Positions 4,691 through 52,903 of a stretch of 64,000 nt of DNA are shown in pieces; position 1 is the stretch's first letter, and the number at the start of each line of letters is the position of its first letter. The position numbers and the translations under genes were made by a program. Under the pieces are notes generated by a model. It did not search any database, was not told the DNA's origin, and saw nothing but the letters and a program-made list of their open reading frames with translations. The DNA is from Lachnospiraceae bacterium (GTDB taxonomy: Bacteria > Bacillota > Clostridia > Lachnospirales > Lachnospiraceae): the NCBI GenBank assembly GCA_017450065.1, contig JAFSYI010000063.1, positions 1-64,000 of the forward strand, written 5' to 3'.

Positions 4691-4722
4691 ACGAATGAAA
4701 ATCAAATAAGAAGGAGGAATTT

Positions 4723-5940: not shown

Positions 5941-5955
5941 GGAGGAACAACACAA

Positions 5956-7831: not shown

Positions 7832-7846
7832 GAATCCGGATATGGC

Positions 7847-8020: not shown

Positions 8021-8065
8021 TCAACCCTTTTATGAAAGGAATGCAAAATGCAACCACAAACGACA

Positions 8066-8089
8066 CTCTCGGACTTCCGGGAGTTTTTT
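8066..8089 (+). terminator. Rho-independent terminator after the replication module
   Basis: Stem CTCTCGG (8066-8072) with CCGGGAG (8077-8083), short loop, then six T. It closes the relaxase, CHC2 and VapE transcription unit. Confidence 0.75.
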
Positions 8090-8092
8090 ATT

Positions 8093-8132
8093 GCCCGTCA
8101 GCAGGTCTATCCGGCCTTCTGTCGGGCTTTTT
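8093..8132 (+). terminator. Second hairpin with U-tract before the integrase gene
   Basis: A longer imperfect stem beginning GCCCGTCAGCAGG and ending CCTTCTGTCGGGC, then TTTTT, 17 bases before the integrase start. It may be a back-up terminator or an attenuator that keeps integrase expression low. Confidence 0.6.
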
Positions 8133-8149
8133 ACCTATAAGGAGAAAAT

Positions 8150-17502: not shown

Positions 17503-17630
17503 ATATTGAATGAGATATCATTTTGTGCTAAAATTGTGATGAATTGTTTCGTGAAATATGTAGAATTGTGATTGAAAAGACAAGTAAAGACTTGTTTGAA
17601 ATATTTATTTCAGGATATAGGAGGAAAAAA

Positions 17631-20600
17631 ATGAAAGGTACTAAAAGAAAATTGGCGTTTGTACTCTCGATTGCTATGATCTTGAATTCGTTATCATTAG
17701 GGAGCATCCCTGCTTTTGCGGCAGAGGAGGATCAGCTGCTTGTTGATGCGGTTCAGTCGTCTGAATCTGTGGGAGAGATTGATACGATCGGAACTGACGG
17801 GGATGGGTTTTCAAAAGATGATGCGGATTTAAAAGATAATGCGGATTTAAAAGATAATACGGATTTAAAAGATGATACCGTTTTAAAAGATGATACGATC
17901 TCAAAGGATGGGGAGCAGATTATTTCGGAAGATGGATCGGGTGCTGTTCCGGCTGAAGATCCGGCGGATAATGTTTTAGTCTCAGAAGATGGGAAAGGCT
18001 CCGGCGATGATGGTGCTGCCGTTGCAAACGTGGGATTTGTCAATGAATATGATAATGATGGACTTCCGCCGCAGTCTATTATTGTGAATGATGATAAATA
18101 TAACCTGGAGGTCAGAGTCGGTGATTTTATCTATGATATATACGACGGAACACACTTTGCCATTTTAAGAAAATGGGCTCCTGTGGCACCTACAGAAGAA
18201 ATGGATGTGGTAATTCCCAGGGAGCTCGATCTTAACACGGATTATGAAGGTGTTTACGATTCCGGACTGATCGATGACAATAAAATAAGAAAGGTTGTGG
18301 GTATTAATGCAGCTGCATTCGCAGAGGACGAAGTACACAGGCTTAAATCGGTTGTGATCCCGGATACGGTGAGGATGATAGATGCCGGAGCGTTCGCTGA
18401 TTGTACAGGGCTTACATCGGTGCAGTTCCCTGAAAGTATGGAAACATCGGCCAAGGAAATCTACGGAGACGGATTTATCGGAGACAATGCTTTTATTGGT
18501 TGTACCTCTCTTGCGACGGTAACTCTGCCTAAGAAGCTGGATGAGGTAGGAACTGGAATTTTTGCAGAATGTACTTCTCTTACTTCGATTGAGATACCGA
18601 GGGATTGGGACTCAACTGTAGTGCAGAAAGGTAAAAAAGAGTATACGATCCGCGAGGATACTGTTGTCAGCGGGCCGTTTTCATTCTGTGACAGTCTGAC
18701 TACGATCACTTTCGCACCGGGAACATCGAAAATTGCCGACTGTATGCTTGCGGATTGTGATTCCATAGTGAATATAGATATTCCGGCCACTATGACTAAT
18801 ATTGGTAAAAAGGCATTTTACGGGTGCGCTTCTTTGGAGTCTTTGAATATAGACGGTAATTCATCGCTTGTCAATATCGGCGACTGGGCATTCCAGAAGT
18901 GTGGAAAGCTCACCGGCGCAGAACTGCCGCGGTATACGAAAACGATCGGCCAGGGCGCATTTATTGATTGTGTAGCGCTGACAAAAACCGTTATTCCGTA
19001 TAGTATAAGCAAGATAGGAGATAAGGCATACTATAACTGTGTTGAGCTGGAAAGTCTTTCGTTTGAGGATGGTGATCCGCAGAATATATCAGGCGGCACC
19101 ATAGGATACTATGCTTTTGGTGATAACACATATAAAAAAGACATCGGTTATTCGCATCCTTTGGCTAAGCTTAAGACCGTAACCATACCAAACAGTATCA
19201 TATCAATAGGAGAAGGGGCATTTGAGGGTTGTATAGGTCTTGAGAGTCTGACTACCGAGAATGTATATGCAACCTTTACCGGAAGCCAGAAGATTGGCAA
19301 AAGAGCATTTTACAGGTGTACAGCCTTGTTGACTGCTGTTTTCTCCGACACGGTTGAGTCGGTTGGTGAATCCGCTTTCGAGGAATGCAGCTCACTCAGG
19401 ACTGTCAGGTTCGACGATAAGGAAGACAGTGCCGTTGAGAGTCAGAGCATAGGATTGAAGGCGTTTTATAACTGCACTGCTTTGGATGATTTAAAACTTT
19501 CGGATAAGCTTACATCGATTGGTCAGTCTGCATTCGAGAACTGCAGCAGTCTGGCAACGCTTACCATGACAAATAACATTCAGACTATAGGCAGAACGGC
19601 ATTTAAATCATGCACCGCGCTGTTGGATCTGAAGCTTCCGGAAAAGCTTGAGACGATCGGAGAGGCTGCGTTCAGTGATTGCAGCTTGCTTGAGAGTGTT
19701 GTTATACCGATGAGTATAAAGAAAGTAGATATTTCGATCAAAAACAACAGGCTCGAAGATTCAGATAAAGAAAAAGGAATATTCTATAAAACAAAGCTTA
19801 CAAATGTTGAGTTTAGAAGATTTAATGCAGATGACGGCGTAAAGATACCGGATAAAATTCTGATCGGAGCTTCATGGGTGCAGAATGTTACAATGCCTAA
19901 AGGTGAGGTAACGGAGATCGGTGAGTTCGCTTTCGCGCTCTGTACGGCATTAAAGGAGATAGAAATACCGGAGTCGGTAGTGACCATATGTGGAGGAGCC
20001 TTCGCCGGATGTATTCGTCTGGGTGAAAGCAAAGCGGACAAATCTGAGAATCCCCTGATCATTCCTGGAAAGGTTACTTCTATAGGAAGATCTGCTTTTA
20101 AGGATTGCAGTGCTTTGGTGCATGTTCAGCTTCCCGATAGTCTGGAAACTCTGGGTTACGGCTCGGGAGACGGTGCGTTTGAGAACTGTACTTCGCTTGT
20201 GGAAATGGATATCCCCGACAATGTTACCGTAATCGGAGCATCCACTTTTGCCGGCTGCGAGAGTCTGGAGAGGGTAAAGCTTCCGGTCAGCACCAAAGAC
20301 AAGTACATAAAGAAGATAGATGATCAGCTGTTTATGGGATGTATGAAACTGGCCGTTGTGGAAAATGTGTCTCAGGACTATCTTGAAGAAATAGGTAACA
20401 AATCATTCTATAAGTGCCGTGTATTAACCGGAATGAACGGTGCGGAGAAAATGGATTTCTCCGAGTATAAGAAGCTTAAAAGGATAGGCGATGAGGCCTT
20501 CTACGGGTGTGATGCGATAACGGAGGTGGTATTGTCGGCAGCTACCGAGACATTGGGAGTTTCGGCCTTTGATACATGTAAGGGTCTGGCAACGCTGACT

Positions 20601-22916
20601 ATAGGAACAGGTCCCAGGGTAATCCCCGAGAACGCTTTTGCCAACGATCCGGGACTGACAAGCGTAACAATACCAAGAAACGTTCTTGTGATAAAGACCG
20701 GTGCGTTTTCTTTTGACATCGGACTGAAGGAAATACGTATCCCCAAAGAAACAAATATAGAAGATAATGTATTTTCATATTTAAACACACTTACAATATA
20801 CGGAATTAACGGAAGTCCGGCTCAGAAATATGCAGATGAAAAAGGCATTAAATTCGTAGATGAAAGTGTTATATACGCAAAAACAATAAAATTTACGGAT
20901 AACACTCCGATCCTGCTTAAACTGAGAGGTAAAAACAATACGGACAGAGCGGATGTTCCGAGTCTTGACATCTCACCGGTGGATTATTCGGTTGATGTTG
21001 AATACACCTCGAGTAATACCGAAGTATTTATCGTTGAGGAATATGAATACAACAATCCGGCTACAAAGCTGAAGGAAAAAAGGCACAGGGTAATAGCAAC
21101 GGGTGTAGGAACAGCCGAGCTTAAAGCGCAGGTTCCCAAGGATGAGAATGATATGATATCGGCTTCCATTACGGTCACCGTAAAGAAACCGGTTGAAAGA
21201 ATAAGTATACCTGCAGGTATGTCAAGAGAGAATACAATAATCATACCTGATACGCTCCAGCTGGATGTTGTGGTTACTCCCGAGGATGCAACCGATAAAA
21301 CGTACACGTGGAAATCAGGAGATGAGAATATATGTTATGTGGATAAAAACGGTAAGGTATTTTCCAAGGGCGTCGGAACCACCAAGGTATATGCGGTTTC
21401 GAATGATGATCCGACTGTATTGTGTGTTTTCGATATTACGGTAATAATCAATTGGGGTGATATCACGGAATCCATGCAGGAGGAGCTGTTTGATAATAAG
21501 AGAGAAAAAATCCCGCAAAGGATATGGTATGCATTCAAGGGTGATAATACCGTATATTACCCGTCCTCCGCGCCTCAGATTACAAAAGTAAGTAAGTACT
21601 ATACCGGCGGAAGGATCATGTTCAACGGTGATATCTGGGTATACTACGGTATCAATAAGCTTGTTGAAGGCAGAGATTATACGGTTAAGTATTATAACAA
21701 TATTAATCCGGCCAAGGCAGATGCAGCCAAAGCGCCAACAGTCAGAATATCGGGAAAGGGCAGTTATTATAAAGGAAGAGAAGACTTCAGATTTAATATA
21801 GAAGAGGGAGAAAAAGCTAACTCCGAAGTTAAAATAGCATGCCTTAACAGGAAACCCGAATATACAGGTGATGTTCTTACGCTGCAGGATTTATATCTGC
21901 CCAACACCAAACTGGGATATGATAAGGTAACCCTCTATACCGAGAAAAACGGAAAGAGAGTAGAGCTTATTGAAGGAAAAGACTATAAGTTTGACGAGTC
22001 ACAGCTTAGAGACACAGGTACTTTCGCTCTCAGGTTCGATCTTATCGGAGACGACTATAAGGGCGTTGTGATAAGTGACAGTATCACTGTTAAACAATAT
22101 GATGTTAAAAAGCATTCCGATGAAGTGAAATTAGAGTATCCATCCGCAGTAGAGTTCAGTAAAGCGGGAGCGACTCCTGATATTGTCGTGAAATGCGGAA
22201 CCAAAGAACTGAAGGAAGGCGTTGATTATAAAGTAACCTACAGCGCAAACAAGAAGCTTGGAACAGCCGCAAAGATGAGAGTAGGATTTCTCGGAAACTA
22301 TAAAGGCGCACTGACCGTCATGTTTGGGATAGGCCAAAAAGATGTTTCGAAGCTGAAGGTATTTGCAAAGGATATAAAATATAAGAATAAAAAGGGTAAT
22401 TTTAAAGTATTGCCCGTTATCTGGGATGACGGATTGGCAGTATCGAAATCAAAAGACATCGAGAAATTCAGTAAAACACAGGGATGTACATATTATTATG
22501 CATCAGGCGATAATATAGGAATGCCGATAGATGATAATGCGATCCTGGAGCCGGATCAGGTTGTTGAAGTCAGGGTAGCGGTGACGGCCAGGGCCAACGG
22601 TTTATACAAGGGAGCTGCAACTCTCAGCGGGTATTACAGAGTATATTCATCTGAGAAGGATATAAAGAAGGCTGTGCTGATACCCAAGAACCCGACGATG
22701 GATTATGGCGCGGGAAATTATGTGAATCCTGTTTACGGAAATGATTTTGAATTGAAGATGCCCAAGGAAGATAAAACACTTACGGAAGATAATATCGAGA
22801 TATTCTCGATATCGAAGAACCGCTTTATCGGAACTGCGACGGTTCAGGTACGTGGTAAGAACGGTTACGGCGGGGTGAAGAAGTTCAAACTTAAAATTAA
22901 AGCCAGAAGTATTTAA
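17631..22916 (+). CDS. BspA-like leucine-rich repeat surface protein
   Basis: 1761 aa, exported. The start at 17631 is set by AGGAGGAAAAAA. The signal peptide ends PAFA before AEED. A tandem acidic repeat (xLKDDT, xLKDNA) lies near residues 60-90, a nucleotide-level repeat. From about 235 to 1090 there are many LRR_5-type repeats (pattern IGxxAFxxCxxLxxVxLPxxLxxI). They are followed by a bacterial Ig-like (Big_2) domain about 1110-1280 (ITVTVKKPVERISIP, DATDKTYTWKS) and further beta-rich domains to the end. There is no LPXTG and no C-terminal helix, so cell attachment must be otherwise. BspA-like proteins bind host or polymer surfaces. Confidence 0.9.
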   Translation: MKGTKRKLAFVLSIAMILNSLSLGSIPAFAAEEDQLLVDAVQSSESVGEIDTIGTDGDGFSKDDADLKDNADLKDNTDLKDDTVLKDDTISKDGEQIISEDGSGAVPAEDPADNVLVSEDGKGSGDDGAAVANVGFVNEYDNDGLPPQSIIVNDDKYNLEVRVGDFIYDIYDGTHFAILRKWAPVAPTEEMDVVIPRELDLNTDYEGVYDSGLIDDNKIRKVVGINAAAFAEDEVHRLKSVVIPDTVRMIDAGAFADCTGLTSVQFPESMETSAKEIYGDGFIGDNAFIGCTSLATVTLPKKLDEVGTGIFAECTSLTSIEIPRDWDSTVVQKGKKEYTIREDTVVSGPFSFCDSLTTITFAPGTSKIADCMLADCDSIVNIDIPATMTNIGKKAFYGCASLESLNIDGNSSLVNIGDWAFQKCGKLTGAELPRYTKTIGQGAFIDCVALTKTVIPYSISKIGDKAYYNCVELESLSFEDGDPQNISGGTIGYYAFGDNTYKKDIGYSHPLAKLKTVTIPNSIISIGEGAFEGCIGLESLTTENVYATFTGSQKIGKRAFYRCTALLTAVFSDTVESVGESAFEECSSLRTVRFDDKEDSAVESQSIGLKAFYNCTALDDLKLSDKLTSIGQSAFENCSSLATLTMTNNIQTIGRTAFKSCTALLDLKLPEKLETIGEAAFSDCSLLESVVIPMSIKKVDISIKNNRLEDSDKEKGIFYKTKLTNVEFRRFNADDGVKIPDKILIGASWVQNVTMPKGEVTEIGEFAFALCTALKEIEIPESVVTICGGAFAGCIRLGESKADKSENPLIIPGKVTSIGRSAFKDCSALVHVQLPDSLETLGYGSGDGAFENCTSLVEMDIPDNVTVIGASTFAGCESLERVKLPVSTKDKYIKKIDDQLFMGCMKLAVVENVSQDYLEEIGNKSFYKCRVLTGMNGAEKMDFSEYKKLKRIGDEAFYGCDAITEVVLSAATETLGVSAFDTCKGLATLTIGTGPRVIPENAFANDPGLTSVTIPRNVLVIKTGAFSFDIGLKEIRIPKETNIEDNVFSYLNTLTIYGINGSPAQKYADEKGIKFVDESVIYAKTIKFTDNTPILLKLRGKNNTDRADVPSLDISPVDYSVDVEYTSSNTEVFIVEEYEYNNPATKLKEKRHRVIATGVGTAELKAQVPKDENDMISASITVTVKKPVERISIPAGMSRENTIIIPDTLQLDVVVTPEDATDKTYTWKSGDENICYVDKNGKVFSKGVGTTKVYAVSNDDPTVLCVFDITVIINWGDITESMQEELFDNKREKIPQRIWYAFKGDNTVYYPSSAPQITKVSKYYTGGRIMFNGDIWVYYGINKLVEGRDYTVKYYNNINPAKADAAKAPTVRISGKGSYYKGREDFRFNIEEGEKANSEVKIACLNRKPEYTGDVLTLQDLYLPNTKLGYDKVTLYTEKNGKRVELIEGKDYKFDESQLRDTGTFALRFDLIGDDYKGVVISDSITVKQYDVKKHSDEVKLEYPSAVEFSKAGATPDIVVKCGTKELKEGVDYKVTYSANKKLGTAAKMRVGFLGNYKGALTVMFGIGQKDVSKLKVFAKDIKYKNKKGNFKVLPVIWDDGLAVSKSKDIEKFSKTQGCTYYYASGDNIGMPIDDNAILEPDQVVEVRVAVTARANGLYKGAATLSGYYRVYSSEKDIKKAVLIPKNPTMDYGAGNYVNPVYGNDFELKMPKEDKTLTEDNIEIFSISKNRFIGTATVQVRGKNGYGGVKKFKLKIKARSI

Positions 22917-41126: not shown

Positions 41127-42179
41127 ATGGCGGATGGACCGGGCGACGGGGTAAAGCTCAGTATAATCATACCCTGCTACAGAGTAGAGAAATATCTTGC
41201 AAGATGTCTTGATTCCCTGCTTGCTCAGACAATTGAAGGAATCGAGCTTGTATGTATAAATGACGGATCTGATGATAGCTGCCCGGAAATACTTAAAGAA
41301 TACGGGGAACGTTACCCCGACAGGTTTCTGATCATCAATAAGGAAAATGAAGGTGTATGGAAAGCACGCAAAGACGGAATAGCGGCAGCGCATGGCAAAT
41401 ATATAGGTTTTATCGATCCGGATGATCATGTACATAAGGATTACGCACAGAAGCTGTATCAGGCAGCCTTGGATCATGATGCTGATGCAGCCTGCTGCGG
41501 ATTTGAACGCATAGAGGATGAAACCGGAAGGATTTATTCAACGGAGATGACAGGATTTAAGTATGAAACTGTTGACATCCGAAAAGATCCGGGGCTTCTT
41601 CTTGAAGTAAATGCCGCAATCTGGAATAAGATATACAGAGCGGATGTATTAAAGAACATGAAGGATGCCGCGAGCATTCCAAGAGCCATGGATGACCTGA
41701 TCTTTGGCCATATCATCTATCTTAACATAAAAAGGATTGCCTTTGTCAGGGAACCGCTGATCTTTTATACGGTGAGGGCGGACTCAATAGTCAGCAGCAT
41801 ACGTCAGGAGTATGTTCCGGGCATATACAGAGCCATGACAGAGCTTCGCCGTATCTATGAGACAGACGCGCCGGAAATGCTGGCTTATCTTGATTCTGCA
41901 GCCTTTCTCCACCTTGGTATAGCGCTGATGCACAGGCTTTCTTCGGATCCCGGTACGGATCTTACGGGGGCTATAGCCGGTAATACGGCTCACCTTGATA
42001 AGGAACATCCGCTTTGGAGAAAGAGTCCGTACATAAAGCTGTCATATGTACTGAGCCACAGAGGAGCCAACCTTAAGCTGTACACAGTCCGCAGACTGTA
42101 CAGCTTACATCTGTTCAGACTGTTTCTGATCATTTACGGCCGGATGATAAGGCGCCTGGGTATAGATATCAAATGGTAG
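41127..42179 (+). CDS. Family 2 glycosyltransferase
   Basis: 350 aa. A GT-A fold transferase: SIIIPCYRVEKYLARCLDSL at the N-terminus, VCINDGSDD and the metal-binding FIDPDD motif near residue 95. It adds a sugar from a nucleotide donor to an acceptor, here probably a lipid-linked glycan on the cytoplasmic side. The C-terminal half is less conserved and ends with a basic amphipathic stretch. It is the first gene of a six-gene operon with overlapping ends; it overlaps the next gene by 7 bp. Confidence 0.92.
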   Translation: MADGPGDGVKLSIIIPCYRVEKYLARCLDSLLAQTIEGIELVCINDGSDDSCPEILKEYGERYPDRFLIINKENEGVWKARKDGIAAAHGKYIGFIDPDDHVHKDYAQKLYQAALDHDADAACCGFERIEDETGRIYSTEMTGFKYETVDIRKDPGLLLEVNAAIWNKIYRADVLKNMKDAASIPRAMDDLIFGHIIYLNIKRIAFVREPLIFYTVRADSIVSSIRQEYVPGIYRAMTELRRIYETDAPEMLAYLDSAAFLHLGIALMHRLSSDPGTDLTGAIAGNTAHLDKEHPLWRKSPYIKLSYVLSHRGANLKLYTVRRLYSLHLFRLFLIIYGRMIRRLGIDIKW

Positions 42180-42871
42180 AGCACAAGAAGCTGGTGATAA
42201 TACCTGCCTTCAATGAAGAGGAGAGTATTATCGGACAATATAATGAAGTGAAGGAAAAGGCAGAGGGCTACGATATCCTTGTGATCAATGACTGCTCGAA
42301 GGATATGACACACAGGCTATGTGTGGATAACCATGTTAAGGTACTGGATCTTGCCGTTAATCTTGGGATTGGCGGGGCAATGCAGACAGGATACAGGTAT
42401 GCCCTGCTTAACGGATATGACGTGGCTGTACAGATAGACGGAGACGGACAGCACGATCCGGCTTATATAAATAAAATGTATGATGCTCTTGTGTCAGATG
42501 GAGCGGACATGGTAATTGGCTCCCGTTTTATCGATAAAGAAGGATATCAGTCGACATTTTTAAGGAGGCTGGGCATAGGTTATTTCAGCGCGATAATACG
42601 TCTTCTTACCGGACATACGGTGACAGATCCCACTTCGGGACTGCGGATGGTGCGAAGGAAGCTGATAGAAGAGTTCGCGTCAGATTATCCGCAGGACTAT
42701 CCTGAGCCGGAGAGCGCAGTGAGACTTCTTCAGCATGGGAATAAGGTTGTGGAAGTGTCTGTCAGGATGAGGAGAAGAAGTGGGGGAAGATCGTCGATCC
42801 ACCCTGTAGCATCTGTTTATTACATGACAAAAGTAACGATTGCGATCATATTGGAGAGGATGAGAAAGTGA
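42173..42871 (+). CDS. Polyprenyl-phosphate sugar synthase-like glycosyltransferase (DPM1-like GT2)
   Basis: 232 aa. GT2 fold with VIIPAFNEEESI, VINDCSKD, NLGIGGAMQTGYRYA and QIDGDGQHDP, then IGSRF and PTSGLRM. This arrangement is that of dolichol/polyprenyl-phosphate mannose or glucose synthases, which load a sugar onto a lipid phosphate for use outside the membrane by GT-C enzymes. There is no C-terminal membrane helix pair; the small DUF2304 protein encoded next may supply the membrane part. The sugar identity is unknown. Confidence 0.88.
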   Translation: MVEHKKLVIIPAFNEEESIIGQYNEVKEKAEGYDILVINDCSKDMTHRLCVDNHVKVLDLAVNLGIGGAMQTGYRYALLNGYDVAVQIDGDGQHDPAYINKMYDALVSDGADMVIGSRFIDKEGYQSTFLRRLGIGYFSAIIRLLTGHTVTDPTSGLRMVRRKLIEEFASDYPQDYPEPESAVRLLQHGNKVVEVSVRMRRRSGGRSSIHPVASVYYMTKVTIAIILERMRK

Positions 42872-43212
42872 GCATAAGGCTTAAGATTTTTCTGTTTGTT
42901 ATCTGGATACTCATATTCCTGTTTATGATGATGAAATTAAAGTCCAAAAAAGCAGACATTAAATACATACTGCCATGGCTTTTTGTGGATTTGGGTCTGA
43001 TGGTAATAACCGTTTTCCCGGGGATACTTAACTTCTTCTGCAGCCTTTTCGGCATAGAGACGCCGAGCAACATGCTATTCTTCTTCGGTCTTGTTTTTCT
43101 TGCCATGATAGTCTTCTCCATAACTCTTGTGCTGTCTAAGCAGAACAGTCAGATTAGGGATCTGACGCAGAGGCTTGCACTGTATGAGGATAAGGAGGGA
43201 GAGAAGAAGTAA
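42868..43212 (+). CDS. DUF2304 membrane protein
   Basis: 114 aa with three hydrophobic helices (about 5-22, 32-55, 67-90) and a polar end (LTQRLALYEDK), as in DUF2304 proteins. These are very often encoded next to polyprenyl-phosphate glycosyltransferases and are thought to be their membrane partners. It starts with GTG overlapping the previous stop (GTGA), so it is translationally coupled to the DPM1-like gene. Confidence 0.8.
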   Translation: MSIRLKIFLFVIWILIFLFMMMKLKSKKADIKYILPWLFVDLGLMVITVFPGILNFFCSLFGIETPSNMLFFFGLVFLAMIVFSITLVLSKQNSQIRDLTQRLALYEDKEGEKK

Positions 43213-43225
43213 GGTGGGGGTATTT

Positions 43226-44131
43226 ATGTTTCGTAATCTGTTGCAACCGGGGAAGACTGTTTATTCGCAGTGGTTTAATGAATATCGGCTGGATGATAAA
43301 GAGATTAAGGCACTTCAGACCTGTCTTCTCGGAATATTTGCCGATTTCAGGAAACTGTGTGATGATCACGGCATCGGTTATATGATGTGGGGAGGAAGTC
43401 TTCTGGGAACTGTACGTCATGAAGGATTTATACCATGGGATGACGATATTGATGTAATGATGTTTCGTGAAGACTTTGACAGATTTGTCGGAATTATGAA
43501 AGAACAGCAGAGTCTGGGAAAGCTGAGCAGACTTTTACTTGCGATCCCGTTTGAGTCGAAGGGTTATTATTTTAAGATTCCCAAGTTATATGATATAAAT
43601 ACTCTTTATGAATCCATTAATTATATGGGTAACCCTGATTACAATATGGCTGGCATTGATATTTTTATTCTGGAGCGCGTGCCTGAGATTTTTCTGCACA
43701 GAAAAATTAGATATGCCTTATATAATTTTGCGTACTATGCTTCTGCCTTATGTCTTGATCAGGTATTTCCGTCTCCGGTAATTATGGAAAAGAGCAGGAA
43801 GATAAAGGATGTAAAGCGCTTTTATTCATTCAGGAGATTTCTGGGAGCTTTCTTTGGCGGCCGTGCGGGAATGAAATTCTATCTCAATATATGTAAAGGA
43901 CTGTCGGAATATAAGAAGGCATCGCCCTTACGCGGGATTCCTTCCGGAACGATCAGAGAAATATTCAGGGCTGAGGATCTTTCAGAACCGGAAAAAGGCA
44001 GATTCTGCGGTTATACGGTCAATATTCCTAAAAAATATGACAGGTATCTGACCTATCTGTACGGAGATTATATGAAGATACCGCCGAAGGAGAAAAGGGA
44101 GATCCATGTTGCGTACAGGGTAAGGGTTTAG
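43226..44131 (+). CDS. LicD-family protein
   Basis: 301 aa. The LicD signature is complete: YMMWGGSLLGTVRHEGFIPWDDDIDV near residue 55-80, with the DDDID nucleotidyltransferase-like acidic motif. LicD proteins transfer phosphocholine or other phosphodiester groups to surface glycans. ATG 43226 follows GGTGGGGGTATTT; the open frame begins earlier at 43175. In this operon it probably decorates the lipid-linked glycan. Confidence 0.9.
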   Translation: MFRNLLQPGKTVYSQWFNEYRLDDKEIKALQTCLLGIFADFRKLCDDHGIGYMMWGGSLLGTVRHEGFIPWDDDIDVMMFREDFDRFVGIMKEQQSLGKLSRLLLAIPFESKGYYFKIPKLYDINTLYESINYMGNPDYNMAGIDIFILERVPEIFLHRKIRYALYNFAYYASALCLDQVFPSPVIMEKSRKIKDVKRFYSFRRFLGAFFGGRAGMKFYLNICKGLSEYKKASPLRGIPSGTIREIFRAEDLSEPEKGRFCGYTVNIPKKYDRYLTYLYGDYMKIPPKEKREIHVAYRVRV

Positions 44132-44144
44132 GTGAAGACATACC

Positions 44145-45599
44145 ATGAAGGACAAAGCAGACAGCGGTGCTGATCTACAGCCGGATCTTAGGAAAAACTA
44201 TATATACAGACTTATAAACGAGATTCTGACATTCGCTCTTCCTTTGATAGCCATGCCGTATATATCAAGAGTACTTGGTGCCGGCGGTGTCGGTGAGTAC
44301 AGCTATACCTATTCCGTTATCACATACTTTATTATGTTCGGCGCAATGGGAACAGCAAGTTATGGAGCAAGGGAAATAGCCATAAACCGCGATGATAGGC
44401 AGACGTGTTCACGGCTGTTCTGGGAGATCGAGCTTATGAGCATATTATTGTGTCTTGTAAGTCTGATGATGTGGCTGCTCCTGATAATGACAGATACCGC
44501 GCACAGGATGGTCTTTATAGCGCTGACTCCATATATCCTTGGAACGATGTTTGATATTTCGTGGTTATTTACCGGGTTGGAACGTATCGGCTTCATGGTG
44601 ACCGCCAATGCTGTTGTAAGGATAGCGGGCATGATGCTGTTGTTCCTGATGGTGCGCTCGGTGGACGATCTGGCAATTTACTGTATCATTAATTCCATGA
44701 CCATGCTGACAGCAAATCTGTCCATGTGGTTGTGCCTTCCCCGATTCCTTGTACGAGTCAGCATCAGGGGATTCAGGTTCGGAAATCATTTCCGTGCGAT
44801 GCTTGTATATTTTATCCCGAATATTGCGCGGTCTATATATACCGTATTGGACAAAACACTGATAGGCCTTATTACCGGCAGTCCCTTCCAGAACGGATAT
44901 TACGAACAGGCGTCCAAAATGATAGGGGTGGCTGACGGGCTTTCGTTTGTAGTATTCAATTCGGCATTATATGCCAGAATGTCATATCTGTTTGCCATGG
45001 GAAAACATGAGGAGGTTAAGAACAGGATCGCTGAAAATGCAGATTATATCATGTTTATGTGTTTTGGGACGGCTTTCGGACTTGCGGGGATAAGCCATAC
45101 GCTGGTGCCTGTTTTCTTCGGTAAGGGATATGAGCCTGTAGAAGGGCTTATATATATGATGCTTCCGCTTGTTCCCGTGATAGGAATAAGCAACTGCCTG
45201 GGGACACAGTACTATACGCCGGCCGGCAGACGGGCACAGAGCGCAGGATATATTGTTGTGGGAGCAGTAACGAATCTTATATTCAATCTGTGTTTAATAC
45301 CGGTCTATGAAGCACGTGGCGCTGTGGCCGCATCGGTAGCAGCGGAATTGCTTATAACAGGATTATATCTCAGAAACTGTGATGGATATCTGACAATAAA
45401 GCAGATCATGGATTCATCAGGCAGAAAGATAGCTGCAGGTATCTGTATGGCGGTTATCGTCCGTCTGCTTGGAGGGCTTAAGCTGAACGGAGTGTACGTG
45501 ATAATTATACAGATATTTACGGGAATTATAACTTATGTTGCGATACTGATCATTCTGAAGGACAGCTTTTTACGGAATCTGAGGGAAAGGGCTTTGTGA
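44145..45599 (+). CDS. Wzx-type oligosaccharide flippase
   Basis: 484 aa with about 12-14 hydrophobic helices, of the MOP/polysaccharide-transport superfamily. The start (YIYRLINEILTFALPLIAMPYISRVLG) and GVGEYSYTYSV are characteristic. It would move the lipid-linked glycan from the cytoplasmic to the outer face, where the STT3-like enzyme acts. It starts 13 bp after the LicD gene and overlaps the next gene by 4 bp. Confidence 0.92.
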   Translation: MKDKADSGADLQPDLRKNYIYRLINEILTFALPLIAMPYISRVLGAGGVGEYSYTYSVITYFIMFGAMGTASYGAREIAINRDDRQTCSRLFWEIELMSILLCLVSLMMWLLLIMTDTAHRMVFIALTPYILGTMFDISWLFTGLERIGFMVTANAVVRIAGMMLLFLMVRSVDDLAIYCIINSMTMLTANLSMWLCLPRFLVRVSIRGFRFGNHFRAMLVYFIPNIARSIYTVLDKTLIGLITGSPFQNGYYEQASKMIGVADGLSFVVFNSALYARMSYLFAMGKHEEVKNRIAENADYIMFMCFGTAFGLAGISHTLVPVFFGKGYEPVEGLIYMMLPLVPVIGISNCLGTQYYTPAGRRAQSAGYIVVGAVTNLIFNLCLIPVYEARGAVAASVAAELLITGLYLRNCDGYLTIKQIMDSSGRKIAAGICMAVIVRLLGGLKLNGVYVIIIQIFTGIITYVAILIILKDSFLRNLRERAL

Positions 45600-47923
45600 A
45601 ATTTATGAGTAATAACAATATAAAAAACAGCAATAAGATCATCAAAATAACTGTTCTGATCATACTGATCATGCTGATGTCGTTTGGCTTCAGGTTACTG
45701 GTAAATCATAGGGTTAATACCGAGCTTGGTGAAGCTTATACAGATCCCGAAACAGGGGTACCGTACCTGACGGAGATGGACTCTTATTACCATCTGAGGA
45801 TGACGAGGGATATTGAGGTGTACGGGCATGCAGGCGAGACTGTTAAGGATGGAGAACCATGGGATGCCTTGAGTTATGCGCCTTATGGAAGAAGTGCGGA
45901 TAATTACCGTCCTCTTATGGCCTATATTGCCATTTTTGTATACAGGATACTGTCTGCAGCAGGCATGGTGACACTGGAACAGGTTGCATATTGGCAGGGA
46001 GCGGTTCTGTCAGCTCTGGTCGTAATACCTGTATTTATTATGGCATACCGTATGCAGGGTATGATCGCTGCAGTCACAGCGGCAGTACTATCGGCGGTCA
46101 ATTACGGATATTTTGTTCATACTGTACCGGGCTTCTATGATACGGATATGGTTATTTCATGGACTTCATGTTTCTTCTTTTGCTTCGGATGTCTGCTGGT
46201 ATCCTGTATGGAGCCGGATAGTGAAGAAGGGGGAAGTAACATATCGGGACGACGTATTAAGATTGCGGTATATTCATTCTTATTTGGTTTGAGCCTGCTT
46301 CTTCTTATAGGTTCATGGTATATCTTTTATATGTTTGCCGGTATATTTGCCGGTACTGTATTACTGTTTATTCTTATGAGGACGGTTATGGCAGGAAAGA
46401 GGAATGGAGCAGCAGTGGTGAAAGGATCGGCACCTTTGATGCTTCTTATCGCAGGATTGTGCATTGCCGTGTTTATTGCAAGACCTGATATCATAAACAG
46501 TGTAATAGTAAATATAAAGGGTGTATTCTCTCAGGGGAAGGGTAGTATATTTCCGAATGCGCTTGTTTCGGTTTCCGAAATGCGTAAGCCTTCTCTTATT
46601 GCCGGAGGGCTGACCGGTCTGTTCCAGATGCGTGTTCTGTCTGATACAAATATAGGCATCATCAATGCAGTAGGAGGACTGGTTCCGTGTCTTGCGGCAT
46701 TGATCATGTGTGTTATGCTTGTTATGCGTATTGTAAAAAAGAATGTGAAGTTCGAATATATACTGCTGATCATCTGGTTTCTGATAACTGCGATACTGGC
46801 AGTAAGGAGCTGGCGTTTTATTATGCTGTTTGCTTTTCCTGTTGCGATATTGGCCGGTATGTTTACCGGCAATATATGTTCGCTTATGGAAGAGAAGAAG
46901 ATGATGGACCGGAAGGTGTTTGAAGGAATGATCATAACTCTCATGCTCTTTCCCGCACTCTACGGTGCCTATCGTTCTTCGGCCGATTCAATGCCTTCGG
47001 TAAACAGGGGGATGCATGATTCACTGACATATATAAGGGATAACACGGACGAGGATACGATCTTAGCCGGATGGTGGGATTACGGATATTTCTTTGAAGA
47101 AAAAGCTGTAAGACGTACACTGTTTGACGGAGGTTCACAGGACGGAGCCAGGATATACTGGGTTGCGAGGGCGTTCGCAACGAAGGATGAGGTATTGTCA
47201 TCCAATATATTCCGTATGATCGCAGGCTCAGGTAATGAGGCGGTGGACAGGATGCTTGAGCTGTTCGGAGAAGATAAGGAAACGCTCAGACTTATGGATG
47301 AACTGCTTTCGGGAGACAGGGAGACTGCAATTGCAAGGCTTAAAAGTGAGAATATAGGTGATGAAGAAGCTGAAGAACTCTCTATGCTGCTGTTTCCTGA
47401 TGTTAAGGAGGATGTGCTGTGCATTATAACCCGGGAGATGCCGGGTGTTGCAGGGTGGTTTGCGAGATTCGGGTATCCCGATGAAGAAGACGGGTACAGT
47501 GATGACGCATACGCAGTGATAATGGATCATGAGGATTTCGTATCATATGACGGCAAGGCAGGCTGGCAGATAGCAAGGGATGACGGTAAGATCAACCTGA
47601 TCATTGAGAACGAGGACGGGATGTACAACGCATATACTACACCTGAAGATTCGGAGGATGAGAAGACTCCGGTTGACAGACTGCTAATAGCGGAGAACGG
47701 TACCATGAGAGAGTACCGCTCCAATACAGAGCCGGATGAAAATACCCCGGGATTTGTTGTTTTTGTGCAGAACGATCTTGAGGTGCCCCAGGTGACCGTA
47801 ATAACATCGCTTATGGCCGATTCCGTTTTTGGCAGGCTGTATTACCTGGGCGGTTCAGGCCTGGAGCGCTATACTTCGATAGACAATGTACCCGGCAATG
47901 TGGCATTGTACAGGATTGAATAG
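45596..47923 (+). CDS. STT3/PglB/AglB-family oligosaccharyltransferase
   Basis: 775 aa. The catalytic motifs of the N-glycosylation enzyme are all visible: first-loop acidic motif TEMDSYYHLR (Asp62), second metal motif GFYDTDM (Asp182, Asp184), external-loop SVSE (325-328, followed by MRKPS) and WWDYG at 493-497. About 11-13 helices fill residues 15-460, and a soluble catalytic domain of about 300 residues follows. Length and order match PglB (about 710 aa) and archaeal AglB. The enzyme moves a lipid-linked glycan to Asn in N-X-S/T. It starts with GTG overlapping the flippase stop; ATG at 45605 is possible. Such enzymes are uncommon in Gram-positive bacteria. Confidence 0.88.
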   Translation: MKFMSNNNIKNSNKIIKITVLIILIMLMSFGFRLLVNHRVNTELGEAYTDPETGVPYLTEMDSYYHLRMTRDIEVYGHAGETVKDGEPWDALSYAPYGRSADNYRPLMAYIAIFVYRILSAAGMVTLEQVAYWQGAVLSALVVIPVFIMAYRMQGMIAAVTAAVLSAVNYGYFVHTVPGFYDTDMVISWTSCFFFCFGCLLVSCMEPDSEEGGSNISGRRIKIAVYSFLFGLSLLLLIGSWYIFYMFAGIFAGTVLLFILMRTVMAGKRNGAAVVKGSAPLMLLIAGLCIAVFIARPDIINSVIVNIKGVFSQGKGSIFPNALVSVSEMRKPSLIAGGLTGLFQMRVLSDTNIGIINAVGGLVPCLAALIMCVMLVMRIVKKNVKFEYILLIIWFLITAILAVRSWRFIMLFAFPVAILAGMFTGNICSLMEEKKMMDRKVFEGMIITLMLFPALYGAYRSSADSMPSVNRGMHDSLTYIRDNTDEDTILAGWWDYGYFFEEKAVRRTLFDGGSQDGARIYWVARAFATKDEVLSSNIFRMIAGSGNEAVDRMLELFGEDKETLRLMDELLSGDRETAIARLKSENIGDEEAEELSMLLFPDVKEDVLCIITREMPGVAGWFARFGYPDEEDGYSDDAYAVIMDHEDFVSYDGKAGWQIARDDGKINLIIENEDGMYNAYTTPEDSEDEKTPVDRLLIAENGTMREYRSNTEPDENTPGFVVFVQNDLEVPQVTVITSLMADSVFGRLYYLGGSGLERYTSIDNVPGNVALYRIE

Positions 47924-47982
47924 GGCAGGCTTCTGCATTGGAAGCTTTAAAAAGTTATGATAACTTTATGGAGCCTCATGTG

Positions 47983-48058
47983 GTTATGAAGAGTTTACAG
48001 TACAATGGGTAGTTATGAAGAGTTTGCGATATATGGATAAGTTATGAAGAGTTTACAG
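47983..48058. repeat. Three 29-bp-spaced direct repeats (GTTATGAAGAGTTT)
   Basis: Copies start at 47983, 48012 and 48041, each GTTATGAAGAGTTTACAG or GTTATGAAGAGTTTGCGA, separated by 11-bp unlike sequence. Regular 29-bp spacing suggests a protein-binding array in front of the ATPase gene. A dyad AAAGTTATGATAACTTT lies just upstream (around 47951-47967). Confidence 0.7.
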
Positions 48059-48140
48059 AGACTTGTTAATGTGTTATCATATAGATGGAGTAATTGATAA
48101 AAAGGATACATCTCATCCCATGCAGATACGGAGGACCGGA

Positions 48141-49181
48141 ATGCATACAGAGAACCCATTCACCATAACCTTCGGCAAACAGCCGAATAAGCTTATTTCA
48201 AGGTATGAAGATACCGATGAAATAGTCAGTACATTCAGTGCGGATAATGCCGTAAGCCAGACATTTCTTATTGAAGGCATCCGTGGCAGCGGTAAAACGG
48301 TGCTAATGACTACCGTGTCCAAAATTCTTGGTGAAAAAAAAGACTGGATAGTTATTAATCTGAATCCGACTATGGATTTACTGGAGAGCTTTGCAGTAAG
48401 GCTCAATGATGCATGCAATTCCAAGCCTGAATTATTAAGCAAGGGATTCAATATTTCAGCAGCCGGTTTTGGCATAGGAGTGAATGGTGAGGAAAGAAGT
48501 ACCGATCATGTCGGTATGATAGATAAGCTGTTCAAATCACTTATCAGAAAAGACCGAAAGGTTCTTATAACAATAGATGAAGTGGTACACAACAACAATA
48601 TGAAGGTATTTGCCAGCCAATTTCAGATTTTCATCAGGCAGGATTATCCTCTGTTTCTTATTATGACCGGTCTTCATGAGAATATCTATGAAATCCAAAA
48701 TGATCCTGCTCTCACTTTTCTCCTGAGGTCACCTAAGATAATAACGGGACCGCTCAGTATTCTTCAGATCACGAAACAGTATAAAAATATTTTTGGAACG
48801 GATGAAATAAAGGCCCGTGAGCTGGCTTATCTTACCAGGGGATTTGCTTTCGCATTTCAGGCATTGGGTGTATCCTATTGGAACAACAGAGAAGCAGGAA
48901 TGGAGGCGGTTCTTGAGGAGTTTGATGAGCTGCTGGATGATTTTGTATATAAAAAAATATGGTCGTCGCTGACCACACGTGAACGTGAAATAGTCAGGGC
49001 GATAAATACAGATGAGGTAAAGGCATCTGAAATATGTGTCCGTACCGGGATTAGTAACAGTTCCTGGTCTCAATACAGAGAAATGCTTGTGGATAAGGGA
49101 ATTATAGAGACACCCCGATATGCTTACGTATCCTTGACACTGCCACGGTTTAATGAGGTGACTGCAAATTACAGGATTTGA
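48141..49181 (+). CDS. AAA-type ATPase with C-terminal winged helix
   Basis: 346 aa. The P-loop GIRGSGKTVL lies near residue 45, a Walker B-like LITIDEV near 145, and the sensor-like segment LFLIMTGLHENIY at about 175. The C-terminal 80 residues contain a helix-turn-helix of winged type (LTTREREIVRAI, ASEICVRTGISNSSWSQY). This ORC1/Cdc6-like layout is seen in bacterial ATPases of unknown role. ATG 48141 is preferred because GGAGGACCGGA precedes it. The repeats upstream may be its own binding sites. Link to the glycan operon unknown. Confidence 0.75.
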   Translation: MHTENPFTITFGKQPNKLISRYEDTDEIVSTFSADNAVSQTFLIEGIRGSGKTVLMTTVSKILGEKKDWIVINLNPTMDLLESFAVRLNDACNSKPELLSKGFNISAAGFGIGVNGEERSTDHVGMIDKLFKSLIRKDRKVLITIDEVVHNNNMKVFASQFQIFIRQDYPLFLIMTGLHENIYEIQNDPALTFLLRSPKIITGPLSILQITKQYKNIFGTDEIKARELAYLTRGFAFAFQALGVSYWNNREAGMEAVLEEFDELLDDFVYKKIWSSLTTREREIVRAINTDEVKASEICVRTGISNSSWSQYREMLVDKGIIETPRYAYVSLTLPRFNEVTANYRI

Positions 49182-49243
49182 ATTTGCCTATATCTGTCCA
49201 ATTACCGGATAAACACAAAAAACGACCGAATATACAAAAAAAG

Positions 49244-49272
49244 TTGTTGCATATGACAAGATATGTTATAAC
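49244..49272 (+). promoter_or_regulatory. Promoter of the sequon-rich surface protein gene
   Basis: TTGTTG (49244-49249), 17-bp spacer, TATAAC (49267-49272), about 90 bp before the ATG. A hairpin (GCATA...TATGC, about 49278-49302) lies in the leader. Confidence 0.55.
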
Positions 49273-49363
49273 TATCTGCATAGGCATAACTATGTGTATT
49301 TATGCGGTTTGGAAATTTTACGGATTAATTTGAATACATTTTGGCGATGAAGGAGGATGAGTT

Positions 49364-52300
49364 ATGTTAGGAAGACGGTTACTTAAGAGGCTGACGCGTC
49401 TTGGACTTGCTACATATGCAATGACTTACTGCATGGCGTTTACCGTCTGCGCGTCCGAGAATCCGATAGCCGATCTTGCGGTTGCGGACACTGTTCAGGT
49501 TCTGGAAGTAGAGGCCGGAAGAGACAGTGGGCTTAATTCAGATTTACTGTCGAAGGATTTAATAAAGGAATCTGAAGACGGTGAGATTATTGGAGCAGAC
49601 GGCCTGTTGGAAGATGGGGCTGTTTCTGCCGGTGAGGAGCCGGATAAGCTTCAGGCAGAAGATCTGTTAGTGACACACGAAGGAGAAGAGGGTGAGGCTT
49701 TCTTCACTGAGACTCCCAAGCTGCCACCTGCAGTTGATGACGAAGGAGAGGCAGTTGATCCCGATTATGTTGAATTTAACTGCAGCGCACTTACGGTCAC
49801 TGATTTGAATCAAAGTTATCCGTTCACAGTTTATAAGGGTGGCAACCCCATCGAGAATATTTCGCAGATAAGCTTCGGACTGGCGGATAATAAGAATGGT
49901 ACAGGTGCAAGTCCTTCATTCAGAGGTGCAAGTATCAGTGAATACGGTATCCTTAATTTCTCTTCAAGCACCGAATCCATGACATTCTATGTGATCGCAG
50001 ATGTCGGAGGAAGGATCGCATCATGTAAGGTCGTGGTATATGTTCCCATAGAAGAGATCGAATTCGTATGTGATACAGATTCCGGGCATGAGCACGGCAA
50101 AAATATTAATATGACAGTTAATGAAACCGCCGAATGGAGACAGGCCAAGGCTAACATTATTCCGGTGGGACAGAGTTATAAACTGTTAAATATCAGCAGA
50201 ATATCCTATGAATTACTGGAGAACGGAGAGCAGATCGATAAAAATCGCGGAATAAATATGACTGTTGATGAAGGGGGTCTTGCCCATATCGATTTCCTGA
50301 ATCTTACACGTTCCGGACTTTTTGAAATAAGAGCAAAATACAATAATGCATATGTAGATGCTGAGGGTGTCAACCGTACGTATGCAAATAATCCTGAAGC
50401 TGTCTGCAGGCTTAATATATCAGTCAAGGGAGATGTTCTCCTTGATGATTACGAAGCACATCTGTCAGATAAGTCTCTTAAGGTGCAGATGTATAAATCG
50501 AAGAATCCTCTTACAGTTACGTTCCGAAATGCAAATACAGGTTCAACGGCTGAAGTGGATGATTATGTAATAACCAATTGCAGCTTTACCAATAGTAAAC
50601 TCAATGATTTTAGCAGTTCCGATTTGCTCAATCTGGGAGTCCTTGAAGACGGTAAGACCGTAAACATTAATGCATCAAAATCATTTGTTGACGCCGGTTC
50701 GGTACCGAGCTTCATTAAGGAATTTAAGAAAGGCATATCAACAGGGCTTGAAGTCTCCGTTAAGGCAACGATTAACGGAACCAGGGTTGAGGATACATTT
50801 ACGACCAATGAGAATGTGACCATTACCTTCGGTGATACAAAACCTACGGCAAAGGATATCAAGGCAGTGGGAACTCTTGAGTTCAATTCCTATAAAGCAG
50901 GTCGGGAAGGACACGGAATAACGTTCCAGGGACCTGAGGTGGGAAGGATTATGACTCCCCCTGCAAAAAAGGACAAAGAAGCATATTTTAAGGCCGGTCT
51001 GGACGCAGATTCAGATGCGATTGCTTTCAACAGTACTTCTTCAATGCCGGCAAAGGGAAGCGGTAAGCTGAATGTGCTCGTATTCCTGAATGATACGGAA
51101 TACAATCTCCCTTCCAATTATAATATTTCTGTTCCGGTAAGCTATAAGATAACGAATGGCGCGCCTGTACTGACGCTTGATCAGTCATCGGCACTGCTGA
51201 ATTGCGCATCATCGGATTTTCTTCTGGTAAGCTTTGGCATTAAAGGAATGACCAGTGATACATCGGTTATGTGTGATGTTAAGGATTCCAAGGGTCATGC
51301 AATAAACGGAACGGCTCCGATCACCGCATATGCATCTCCATATCCATCTGGTACATCGGGATATGTTTATCTGGGCGCCAACTATGGCATTGAATACGGA
51401 ACGTCATATAAGGTGGAAATATATCCTCAAAACGTTGACAGCGGCAGGAAGGGTGTAAAAAAGGTAATCACTGTCAAAACACCGGCTGAGAAGGCAGTAC
51501 AGAGCTTTACGACCAAGCAGAAGGGAACGATAGATGCAGGCATACCCATGTCGGCTGTTTACCTTACTCTTAGCGGCAAGAATGTTAATCTGCTTCTGAA
51601 AACACCGGTTAATGTTACAACGACCTTAAAGAACGGTGAAGATATATCGGATCTGCTGACTTATTATGCTTTTCCCGATGAAAAGCTTAATCCTGTCTTT
51701 ATACTGTATGAGAAGTCACCCTTCCTCCTTCTTGAAAAGGGACTGGGAGGGCAGCAATATGTAACGAAGATTACATATAATATCAGCGGTAATACTATAA
51801 CAACAGAATATAAGGGTAAGATAAGCAATTCGGTGGTGACACCCAAGCTGGAAGAGTCCAGGATAAGCATTAATCCTGATGCCAATTTCAATCAGACTAT
51901 CAGGATCCCGGTTACCAATCTTCCCGGTGGGGAATATAAATATGATATAAAAAATAACTCGCCGTTCGGGATCAATGTCACATCTGAGCTTGCCAGGGAT
52001 TATGTTGAAATATCCACAGATACGATACCCGATTCGGCATACGGAAAGACATTTGAAATTGCGATCACTCCCAAAGCTCCGGAAAAGTACAATGCAACCT
52101 TAAGTGCCAAGGCGGCAACGCTTAAGATAGCTGTACTCAATCCTAAAAAGAATGCCGCAGCTATGTCTGCACAGGTGAAAGGAAGCATCGATGCCGTAAG
52201 GGATGATACAAATGCAACGGCTGTGATATCATTTAAGAATATATATGACGCAGAAAGCATGATCGAGGATATAGTATGTAAAGATATCGTTCTGAAGGGG

Positions 52301-52837
52301 AAGGGAAAGAGTACACCTTTGCCGTGTTATGATAATTTCAATTGTACAACAGATGGAAATAAGGTCATATTTACACGTATGCCGGGTAAGAATATCCAGG
52401 CAGGGACTTATGTGGCCACGGTAGAAGCATTTTTATATAATGGCGGACATGTGACGGGCACCGTAGAATTCAAGGTTGTACGTGGAAAGACCAATACGGT
52501 TGTCAATCCTGCGACGGCTGTCCTTATAAACCGTGACAATGCAAGATATACAACGGTTTACTTCAGCCCTAAAAAGAACGATGCCAATGCCATTATAAAT
52601 GCAACGATCGTAGCAGATAAGAATAAGTTCGACGAGTATTTCAGCCTCGAGCAGATTAAAGATAAGCCGGGCACATACAGGCTGAGAGTACAGAAGGGAT
52701 ATTACGAGAAGCAGGTTAAAAAGAGCATTGTTTCCCTGATCACCAAAGAAGTAAGCAAGAACGTTAAGGTTAATGTGTACTATAATGGAAGTACCGAGTG
52801 TGAAACGGTTACGATGAAGGTTAAGATCAAGCCGTAA
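49364..52837 (+). CDS. Exported protein extremely rich in N-glycosylation sequons
   Basis: 1157 aa. The N-terminus is a signal peptide with a twin-arginine-rich start (LGRRLLKRLTRLG) and a cut site near VCASE. An acidic linker (about 45-135) follows, then a long beta-strand-rich body resembling repeated Ig-like folds. No anchor motif is seen. By eye it has 84 Asn, of which 30 lie in N-X-S/T (X not Pro), spread evenly from residue 139 to the end. No extended acidic D/E-X-N-X-S/T bias is present. It lies 1.4 kb downstream of the STT3 gene and is its best substrate candidate. The ribosome site is AAGGAGGATGAGTT. Confidence 0.85.
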   Translation: MLGRRLLKRLTRLGLATYAMTYCMAFTVCASENPIADLAVADTVQVLEVEAGRDSGLNSDLLSKDLIKESEDGEIIGADGLLEDGAVSAGEEPDKLQAEDLLVTHEGEEGEAFFTETPKLPPAVDDEGEAVDPDYVEFNCSALTVTDLNQSYPFTVYKGGNPIENISQISFGLADNKNGTGASPSFRGASISEYGILNFSSSTESMTFYVIADVGGRIASCKVVVYVPIEEIEFVCDTDSGHEHGKNINMTVNETAEWRQAKANIIPVGQSYKLLNISRISYELLENGEQIDKNRGINMTVDEGGLAHIDFLNLTRSGLFEIRAKYNNAYVDAEGVNRTYANNPEAVCRLNISVKGDVLLDDYEAHLSDKSLKVQMYKSKNPLTVTFRNANTGSTAEVDDYVITNCSFTNSKLNDFSSSDLLNLGVLEDGKTVNINASKSFVDAGSVPSFIKEFKKGISTGLEVSVKATINGTRVEDTFTTNENVTITFGDTKPTAKDIKAVGTLEFNSYKAGREGHGITFQGPEVGRIMTPPAKKDKEAYFKAGLDADSDAIAFNSTSSMPAKGSGKLNVLVFLNDTEYNLPSNYNISVPVSYKITNGAPVLTLDQSSALLNCASSDFLLVSFGIKGMTSDTSVMCDVKDSKGHAINGTAPITAYASPYPSGTSGYVYLGANYGIEYGTSYKVEIYPQNVDSGRKGVKKVITVKTPAEKAVQSFTTKQKGTIDAGIPMSAVYLTLSGKNVNLLLKTPVNVTTTLKNGEDISDLLTYYAFPDEKLNPVFILYEKSPFLLLEKGLGGQQYVTKITYNISGNTITTEYKGKISNSVVTPKLEESRISINPDANFNQTIRIPVTNLPGGEYKYDIKNNSPFGINVTSELARDYVEISTDTIPDSAYGKTFEIAITPKAPEKYNATLSAKAATLKIAVLNPKKNAAAMSAQVKGSIDAVRDDTNATAVISFKNIYDAESMIEDIVCKDIVLKGKGKSTPLPCYDNFNCTTDGNKVIFTRMPGKNIQAGTYVATVEAFLYNGGHVTGTVEFKVVRGKTNTVVNPATAVLINRDNARYTTVYFSPKKNDANAIINATIVADKNKFDEYFSLEQIKDKPGTYRLRVQKGYYEKQVKKSIVSLITKEVSKNVKVNVYYNGSTECETVTMKVKIKP

Positions 52838-52871
52838 GGTACAGGCTGCAAAAAGGAATATTGAGCTAATG

Positions 52872-52903
52872 ATCGGGACGGTTAAGACCGTCCCGATTTT
52901 TTT
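52872..52903 (+). terminator. Strong rho-independent terminator
   Basis: Perfect stem ATCGGGACGGT (52872-52882) with ACCGTCCCGAT (52887-52897), loop TAAG, then a run of seven T. It ends the sequon-rich protein gene. Nothing further is seen up to 53139 apart from a ribosome site (AAGGGAGG). Confidence 0.9.

Follow-up and report, generated by a model that had tools for sequence, protein, structure and literature searches.

Positions 41,127 to 52,837 of the stretch analysed here (the window: 64,000 nucleotides of contig JAFSYI010000063.1, assembly GCA_017450065.1, from a Lachnospiraceae bacterium) very probably hold a dedicated cassette for N-linked protein glycosylation in this Gram-positive family. 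The contig, of 94,709 bases, belongs to a 3.22-Mb genome labelled G000 below. All features of the locus lie on the forward strand. Six genes at 41127-47923 form a tightly coupled operon that encodes a family 2 glycosyltransferase (GT2), a DPM1-like GT2, a DUF2304 protein, a LicD protein, a Wzx flippase and an STT3 enzyme; it is followed by an exported protein rich in N-X-S/T sequons. A preliminary description of this DNA had named the six genes, and all were recovered at their place and strand with matches to the families named. Its proposal of N-glycosylation is supported by the sequence, and is corrected here with respect to the initiating enzyme and to a dedicated rather than a general system.

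The central enzyme is the product of 45596-47923, an STT3/AglB/PglB-type protein of 775 amino acids. It exceeds the curated cut-offs of PF02516 (5.8e-39; 135.2 bits against 24.5) and of PF21436, the STT3-PglB_core domain (6.1e-8; 33.7 bits against 23), and thus has the domains of family GT66. A profile of 12 relatives matched the solved structures of STT3A (4.9e-20), a PglB-type enzyme (3rce, 1e-15) and an archaeal-type enzyme (3waj, 2.2e-14). The WWDYG signature (47072-47086) aligns with WWDYG of PglB and STT3A, and WWDxG is present in all 18 STT3s examined. Asp182-Thr-Asp184, the DxD-type motif within GFYDTD (46139-46147), aligns with GYYDTD of PglB, and Arg407 (46814-46816) aligns with an arginine of PglB, presumably as the equivalent of the phosphate-contacting residue. 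Both are invariant in the 12 sequences compared, as are Asp62 (45779-45781), which we take to be the first external loop aspartate of PglB/AglB, and Glu328 of SVSE (46577-46579). The latter we assume to be the EL5-type glutamate of the TIxE/SVSE motif, although the alignment with PglB does not line it up. The combination of WWDxG and catalytic acidic residues is also that of GT66. Scores for the PglB equivalog NF050801 (50.5 bits, cut-off 1300) and for the archaeosortase-associated archaeal STT3 subfamily TIGR04154 (80.9 bits, NCBI cut-off 450) were far too low for membership in either. Together with the sequon statistics given below, these features strongly support an oligosaccharyltransferase that would move a lipid-linked glycan to asparagine.

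The candidate acceptor, encoded at 49364-52837, is an exported protein of 1157 amino acids. It has exactly the 30 N-X-S/T sequons counted earlier, compared with 12.9 in 2000 shuffles of its own residues (standard deviation 3.2, maximum 25) and a dipeptide-based expectation of 14.5; the reversed motif occurs 10 times. Neighbours of related STT3 genes show the same excess over shuffled values: 30 against 12.4 in G032, 27 against 11.4 in G009, 27 against 9.4 in G030, and 41 against 14.2 and 45 against 13.9 in two tandem partners of G126. Partners cut by contig ends behave likewise, with 13 against 4.5 in G006 and 6 against 2.0 in G003, as does the cut partner of G846 (30 against 11.0). Dipeptide-based ratios are 2.1-3.2 for the partners of these eight enriched genomes (P ≤4e-4, except 0.04 for the short G003 piece), compared with 0.7-1.4 for six control proteins.

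The excess has the form expected of N-glycosylation sites. For positional figures nine partners were pooled, leaving out those of G032 (95% identical to the window's partner), G846 (found later) and G234. Serine or threonine stands at +2 of asparagine 239 times, compared with 58-118 times at 15 other offsets between -8 and +8. Proline is excluded from the middle position (N-P-[ST] in 2 of 239 cases, N-P-other in 26 of 348; Fisher 1e-4). Campylobacter PglB requires an acidic residue at -2, which is found in 24 of 247 sequons from ten proteins, a share not above that of acidic residues in those proteins. Individual sites turn over: 23 G000 sequons fall in columns aligned with G009 and 7 of them are sequons in both, while other asparagines are kept at 21 of 50 positions. 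The number per protein nevertheless stays at 27-30 across G000, G032, G009 and G030, as would be expected from selection on sequon density.

What the partners also share is a signal peptide of about 30 residues, L-x-R-(L/I)-T-R ... C-M-x-F-T-V-C-A (in the window L.RLTR..L...CM.FTVCA, 49364-49453), in which 12 positions are the same in all eight sequences compared, from three genera. Beyond it the mature proteins have 29-45% identity or lack any similarity at 1e-3. A profile of the eight sequences matches six of the 37 genomes of the genus, the same six that carry this STT3, and gives strong matches in three of 397 genomes of the family (G000, G126, G234). It matches its own eight rows by construction; the informative results are its absence elsewhere and two new matches, in G032 and in an unlinked gene of G126. 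The G126 protein is built differently (Big_3_5) and its signal peptide deviates slightly; it contains 27 sequons where 10.0 are expected, a number reached in 0 of 2000 shuffles (reversed motif 15), its repeats meaning that the sites are not independent. A G000 protein that shares a domain with the acceptor (45% identity over 66 residues) and has no such signal peptide contains 7 sequons against 9.3 in the 1150 residues seen. The conserved signal peptide is suggested to mark acceptors as substrates. Weak profile matches in G252 (4e-4) and G341 (6e-4, with an in-frame stop) were taken as chance.

The enzyme is patchily distributed. The STT3 cut-off is passed by 9 of 99 relatives, all among the 37 genomes of the genus and none among the 62 outside it, by 8 of 397 genomes in a family sample that includes G000, and by 6 of 391 in a class sample in which the matches beyond G000 are weak and partial (best 2.5e-8). 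These partial matches and sub-cut-off PF02516 matches (G015, G401, G107, G267, G347) were not counted as STT3, and no relative was found in the viral contigs and plasmids searched. In a tree of 18 STT3s, 11 form a single clade (support 100/100) comprising G000, G032, G009, G030, G006 and G003 of the same genus, G126 and G846 of another, and a subclade of G234, G847 and G366 (100/98). Three of four genomes in the genus of G126 carry the enzyme, and 2 of 61 in that of G234, one of these in divergent form. A sequon-rich exported protein lies beside STT3 in eight of the 11 clade members, all eight outside the G234-G847-G366 subclade. The preliminary description had made its reading depend on such co-occurrence in relatives, and on this count the reading stands. 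In G008 (L014, G008:C149:4000-23255) a divergent STT3 is accompanied by a DPM1-like GT2, a DUF2304 protein and a small EamA/SMR-like protein (weak, sub-cut-off match). Adjoining genes encode several proteins whose leaders resemble those of type IV pilins (N_methyl 2.1e-7 for the one tested), and an STT3 neighbour of 827 amino acids there has no sequon excess.

The remaining operon genes could supply the glycan. Three of the junctions are overlaps of 7, 4 and 4 nucleotides and two are gaps of 13 nucleotides. The first gene (41127-42179; PF00535, 1.9e-35) encodes a GT2 that probably extends the glycan and has relatives of 55-56% identity in the G009, G234 and G847 loci. The LicD-family protein (43226-44131; PF04991, 2.4e-34) would transfer a phosphate-linked group to the glycan; its reading frame was listed from TTG at 43175, and the ATG at 43226, preceded by a G-rich stretch and used for the gaps above, is the likelier start. 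The flippase is of the Wzx/MurJ type (44145-45599; PF01943, Polysacc_synt, 1.4e-24). DPM1-like GT2 and DUF2304 genes accompany STT3 in the window as well as in G009, G030, G006, G003, G126, G846 and G234. LicD is present in the window, G009, G030 and G006; in G234 it forms a fusion with a Wzx-like domain, and the stretches of G003, G126 and G846 yielded none. The loci of G126 and G846 have GT4-type glycosyltransferases at their flanks. Because gene content differs in this way across the compared loci, the core looks like a lipid-priming pair, a flippase and STT3, with decorating enzymes that vary.

In view of the above, a pathway of five steps can be proposed. The DPM1-like GT2 together with DUF2304 would load the first sugar onto a polyprenyl monophosphate. 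The other GT2 would then extend the glycan and LicD add a phosphate-linked group, after which Wzx could flip the lipid-linked glycan outward. Transfer by STT3 to the asparagine of N-X-S/T in the adjacent exported protein, with X other than proline and no sign of an acidic requirement at -2, is the step that the sequences support strongly. Finally, the conserved signal peptide may mark the acceptors, so that dense glycosylation would be confined to a few of the exported proteins. A broader formulation is plausible, if a little short of probable: a self-contained, patchy Gram-positive system with polyprenyl-monophosphate donors as in euryarchaea, in which one signal peptide brands unrelated surface proteins, linked or unlinked, for a private STT3.

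Several observations weigh against this interpretation. No sequon-rich protein was seen beside STT3 in G366 (60 kb seen) or G847 (14-kb contig), in neither of which a DPM1-like or DUF2304 relative stands beside STT3 in the stretches compared, and the whole G366 genome has no match to the signal peptide. A sequon-rich partner, predicted beforehand, was absent from the contig of G847, whereas the same prediction held in G846, a point in favour of the proposal. The STT3 neighbours in G234 are weakly enriched (10 sequons against 6.1 in the protein with the signal peptide, dipeptide-based ratio 1.95, P 0.04; 43 against 33.4 in the other). The more divergent STT3s of G008, G021 and G036 have no enriched neighbour, and no strongly enriched one was found in the stretches beside these or beside the divergent or weaker STT3-family matches of G867, G263, G325, G380 and G354. 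In G032, the 1.6 kb seen upstream of Wzx holds no DPM1-like, DUF2304 or LicD gene and is occupied by an IspD-like gene. Four of the six sequons in G003 have an acidic residue at -2. The acceptor family occurs in 7 of the 37 genomes of the genus, namely the six with this STT3 and G027, whose acceptor relative has 22 sequons against 12.2 (dipeptide-based ratio 1.6, P 0.03); no STT3 was found in this 59% complete genome, perhaps because the acceptor gene begins at a contig end. The AlphaFold model of STT3, built from 4 sequences, is poor (predicted local distance difference test, pLDDT, 49.2; predicted template modelling score, pTM, 0.33). Six phosphoglycosyltransferases elsewhere in G000 also leave room for another donor route.

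In that route the glycan would be built on a pyrophosphate carrier by a PglC/WecA-type enzyme encoded elsewhere, the DPM1-like GT2 providing a side sugar. This is a real possibility, although not the one we favour. The preliminary description had seen no such initiator in the window and concluded that it must lie elsewhere, and PF02397 indeed matches six times in the genome and PF00953 once, always on contigs other than that of the window. Their involvement may not be needed, however, because the DPM1-like GT2 and DUF2304 resemble a polyprenyl-monophosphate-sugar synthase. The GT2 (42173-42871; PF00535, 3e-22) matches PpgS (2.2e-21) and AglJ (1.7e-20), with scores well short of the NCBI cut-offs in both cases, and among solved structures dolichol-P-mannose synthase (5mlz, 1.8e-12) and sll0501, which we take to be GtrB. 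The DUF2304 membrane protein (42868-43212; PF10066, 2.9e-26), the single match in the whole genome, is encoded directly downstream with a 4-nucleotide overlap, so gene order and family are those of a GacI/GacJ-type pair. According to excerpts of the streptococcal literature, GacJ-like proteins typically have a DUF2304 domain (PMC8327497), GacI makes GlcNAc-P-undecaprenol and is stimulated by GacJ, the Wzx-type flippase is GacK and the GT-C transferase GacL (PMC8327497, PMC8035078). An excerpt on euryarchaea describes a monophosphate lipid link, with GT2 enzymes (AglJ/AglG and AglK/AglC) catalysing the first two steps (PMC8993221). By analogy the pair looks like a polyprenyl-monophosphate-sugar synthase of the GacI/GacJ type, similar to AglJ, and the donor is likely a monophosphate-linked glycan. 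The presence of the pair beside STT3 in seven of the eight loci with an enriched partner also argues against a mere side-sugar role.

A second alternative is that exported proteins are glycosylated generally, as in Campylobacter and archaea, the neighbour being merely the densest substrate. STT3 enzymes elsewhere are usually general, and a few sequons per protein would suffice and leave no statistical trace. Open reading frames (ORFs) were sampled from parts of G000, G009, G126 and G234, each part containing the STT3 region by design; they are longest-ORF choices rather than gene predictions, and class totals are approximate, as a crude export classifier placed the window acceptor as cytoplasmic and that of G009 as membrane. 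By sequon excess the STT3 neighbours rank first of 283 in G000 (z 4.8), first of 200 in G009 (z 4.7) and first and second of 189 in G126 (z 8.5 and 7.1); those of G234 do not rank first among 80. In two siblings that are negative for STT3, sampled at 122 and 144 ORFs, the best values are z 3.1 (8 sequons against 2.8) and 2.9 (6 against 1.9). Among the exported proteins sampled from G000, G009 and G126, 115 remain once the signal-peptide-sharing partners are taken out; in these, serine or threonine occurs 448 times at +2 and 341-459 times elsewhere, which is no excess. Forward/reverse sequon ratios of exported proteins (1.15, 1.15 and 1.38, the last including one partner) resemble those of the siblings (1.19 and 1.17). 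One exported G000 protein of 646 amino acids that does not carry the conserved signal peptide (L047:5818-7758, G000:C2) has 13 sequons against 5.3, a point in favour of general glycosylation, though its reversed motif occurs 11 times. Since the sampled exported proteins are otherwise without a sequon excess, the system seems to be reserved for proteins that bear the one conserved signal peptide, and general glycosylation is unlikely.

It is very improbable that the STT3-like protein acts as a GT-C transferase decorating a cell-wall polysaccharide, with an unrelated sequon-rich neighbour. The operon logic of a DPM1-like GT2, DUF2304, Wzx and a GT-C enzyme is that of GacI-J-K-L as far as the cited excerpts describe it. 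Here, however, the terminal enzyme is an STT3 with WWDxG and a PglB_core domain, and the likely acceptor is a protein, not rhamnan: the neighbours have a specific excess of N-X-S/T without proline, and the acceptor travels with STT3. The least credible explanation, that fold or composition produces the excess incidentally, for example through beta-helix asparagine ladders or Ig-like strands, could appeal to the Asn- and Ser/Thr-rich partners, to PMP-type repeats in the tandem G126 pair and to G027 as a possible case of excess without STT3 in an incomplete genome, but the excess is common to three mature architectures without detectable similarity, occurs at +2 and not at -2, excludes proline, and is absent from the protein that shares the acceptor domain and lacks the signal peptide.

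The proposed dedicated system can be compared with known ones. The euryarchaeal AglB pathways (Haloferax, Methanococcus), as far as the excerpt on them goes, also combine an STT3-family enzyme with GT2 enzymes for the first and second steps and a monophosphate lipid, the latter probable for the Lachnospiraceae locus; unlike them, this locus has a bacterial host, a Wzx flippase, LicD, a DUF2304 partner and a dedicated acceptor with a conserved signal peptide. With Campylobacter Pgl it would share STT3-family transfer to asparagine after flipping, and the WWDYG and DTD motifs align with those of PglB, but Pgl is a general system and the Lachnospiraceae operon has no PglC-like gene. Serine-rich repeat adhesins with accessory Sec offer another parallel: one adhesin with a special signal peptide receives dedicated glycosylation by adjacent enzymes. 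Those adhesins are O-glycosylated in the cytoplasm, whereas the present locus would use lipid-linked transfer to asparagine outside the cell.

Glycan transfer to asparagine is established for archaea, animals and Campylobacter, and no report of STT3-type N-glycosylation in Gram-positive bacteria was found in the open-access literature searched. If the enzyme and its substrate are indeed a dedicated pair, N-linked glycosylation would extend to Lachnospiraceae. An oligosaccharyltransferase without evident acidic requirement, perhaps using monophosphate donors, would then be available for glycoengineering, and signal peptides could select substrates for glycosylation.

Other features of the locus can be noted briefly. 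An AAA-type ATPase gene (48063-49181; weak, sub-cut-off ATPase matches) separates STT3 from the acceptor gene. It occupies the same position in G032 and is absent there in G009, G030, G006 and G003; among 13 loci compared, a relative at 1e-5 was found in G032 only. It was probably inserted and is unlikely to belong to the glycosylation system. A similar ATPase is encoded close to the unlinked acceptor-type gene of G126 (L154:5013-6068). Downstream of the acceptor gene, a consensus scan found a terminator-like hairpin with a T run (52871-52898; 12-pair stem, 7 GC pairs). The tandem G126 acceptors (L155:672-4298 and 4418-8158) carry Chlamydia-PMP-type repeats and NGTIPDNGTIPDNGT-like linkers, which are reminiscent of adhesin-like proteins of gut methanogens. 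This resemblance raises the possibility that the system was acquired from archaea by horizontal transfer. The proteins flanking STT3 in G234 (C34; L066 with L133), of 694 and 2382 amino acids, have ends that look sortase-like by eye, made up of a TGD motif, a hydrophobic segment and a basic tail; the window acceptor has no evident anchor. Elsewhere in the window, 17544-22913 encodes a BspA-type leucine-rich repeat surface protein of 1790 amino acids with ordinary sequon numbers (11 against 11.5), and 10015-13308 a YfhO-family protein (PF09586, 2.2e-65), a family that includes known GT-C transferases for teichoic acids.

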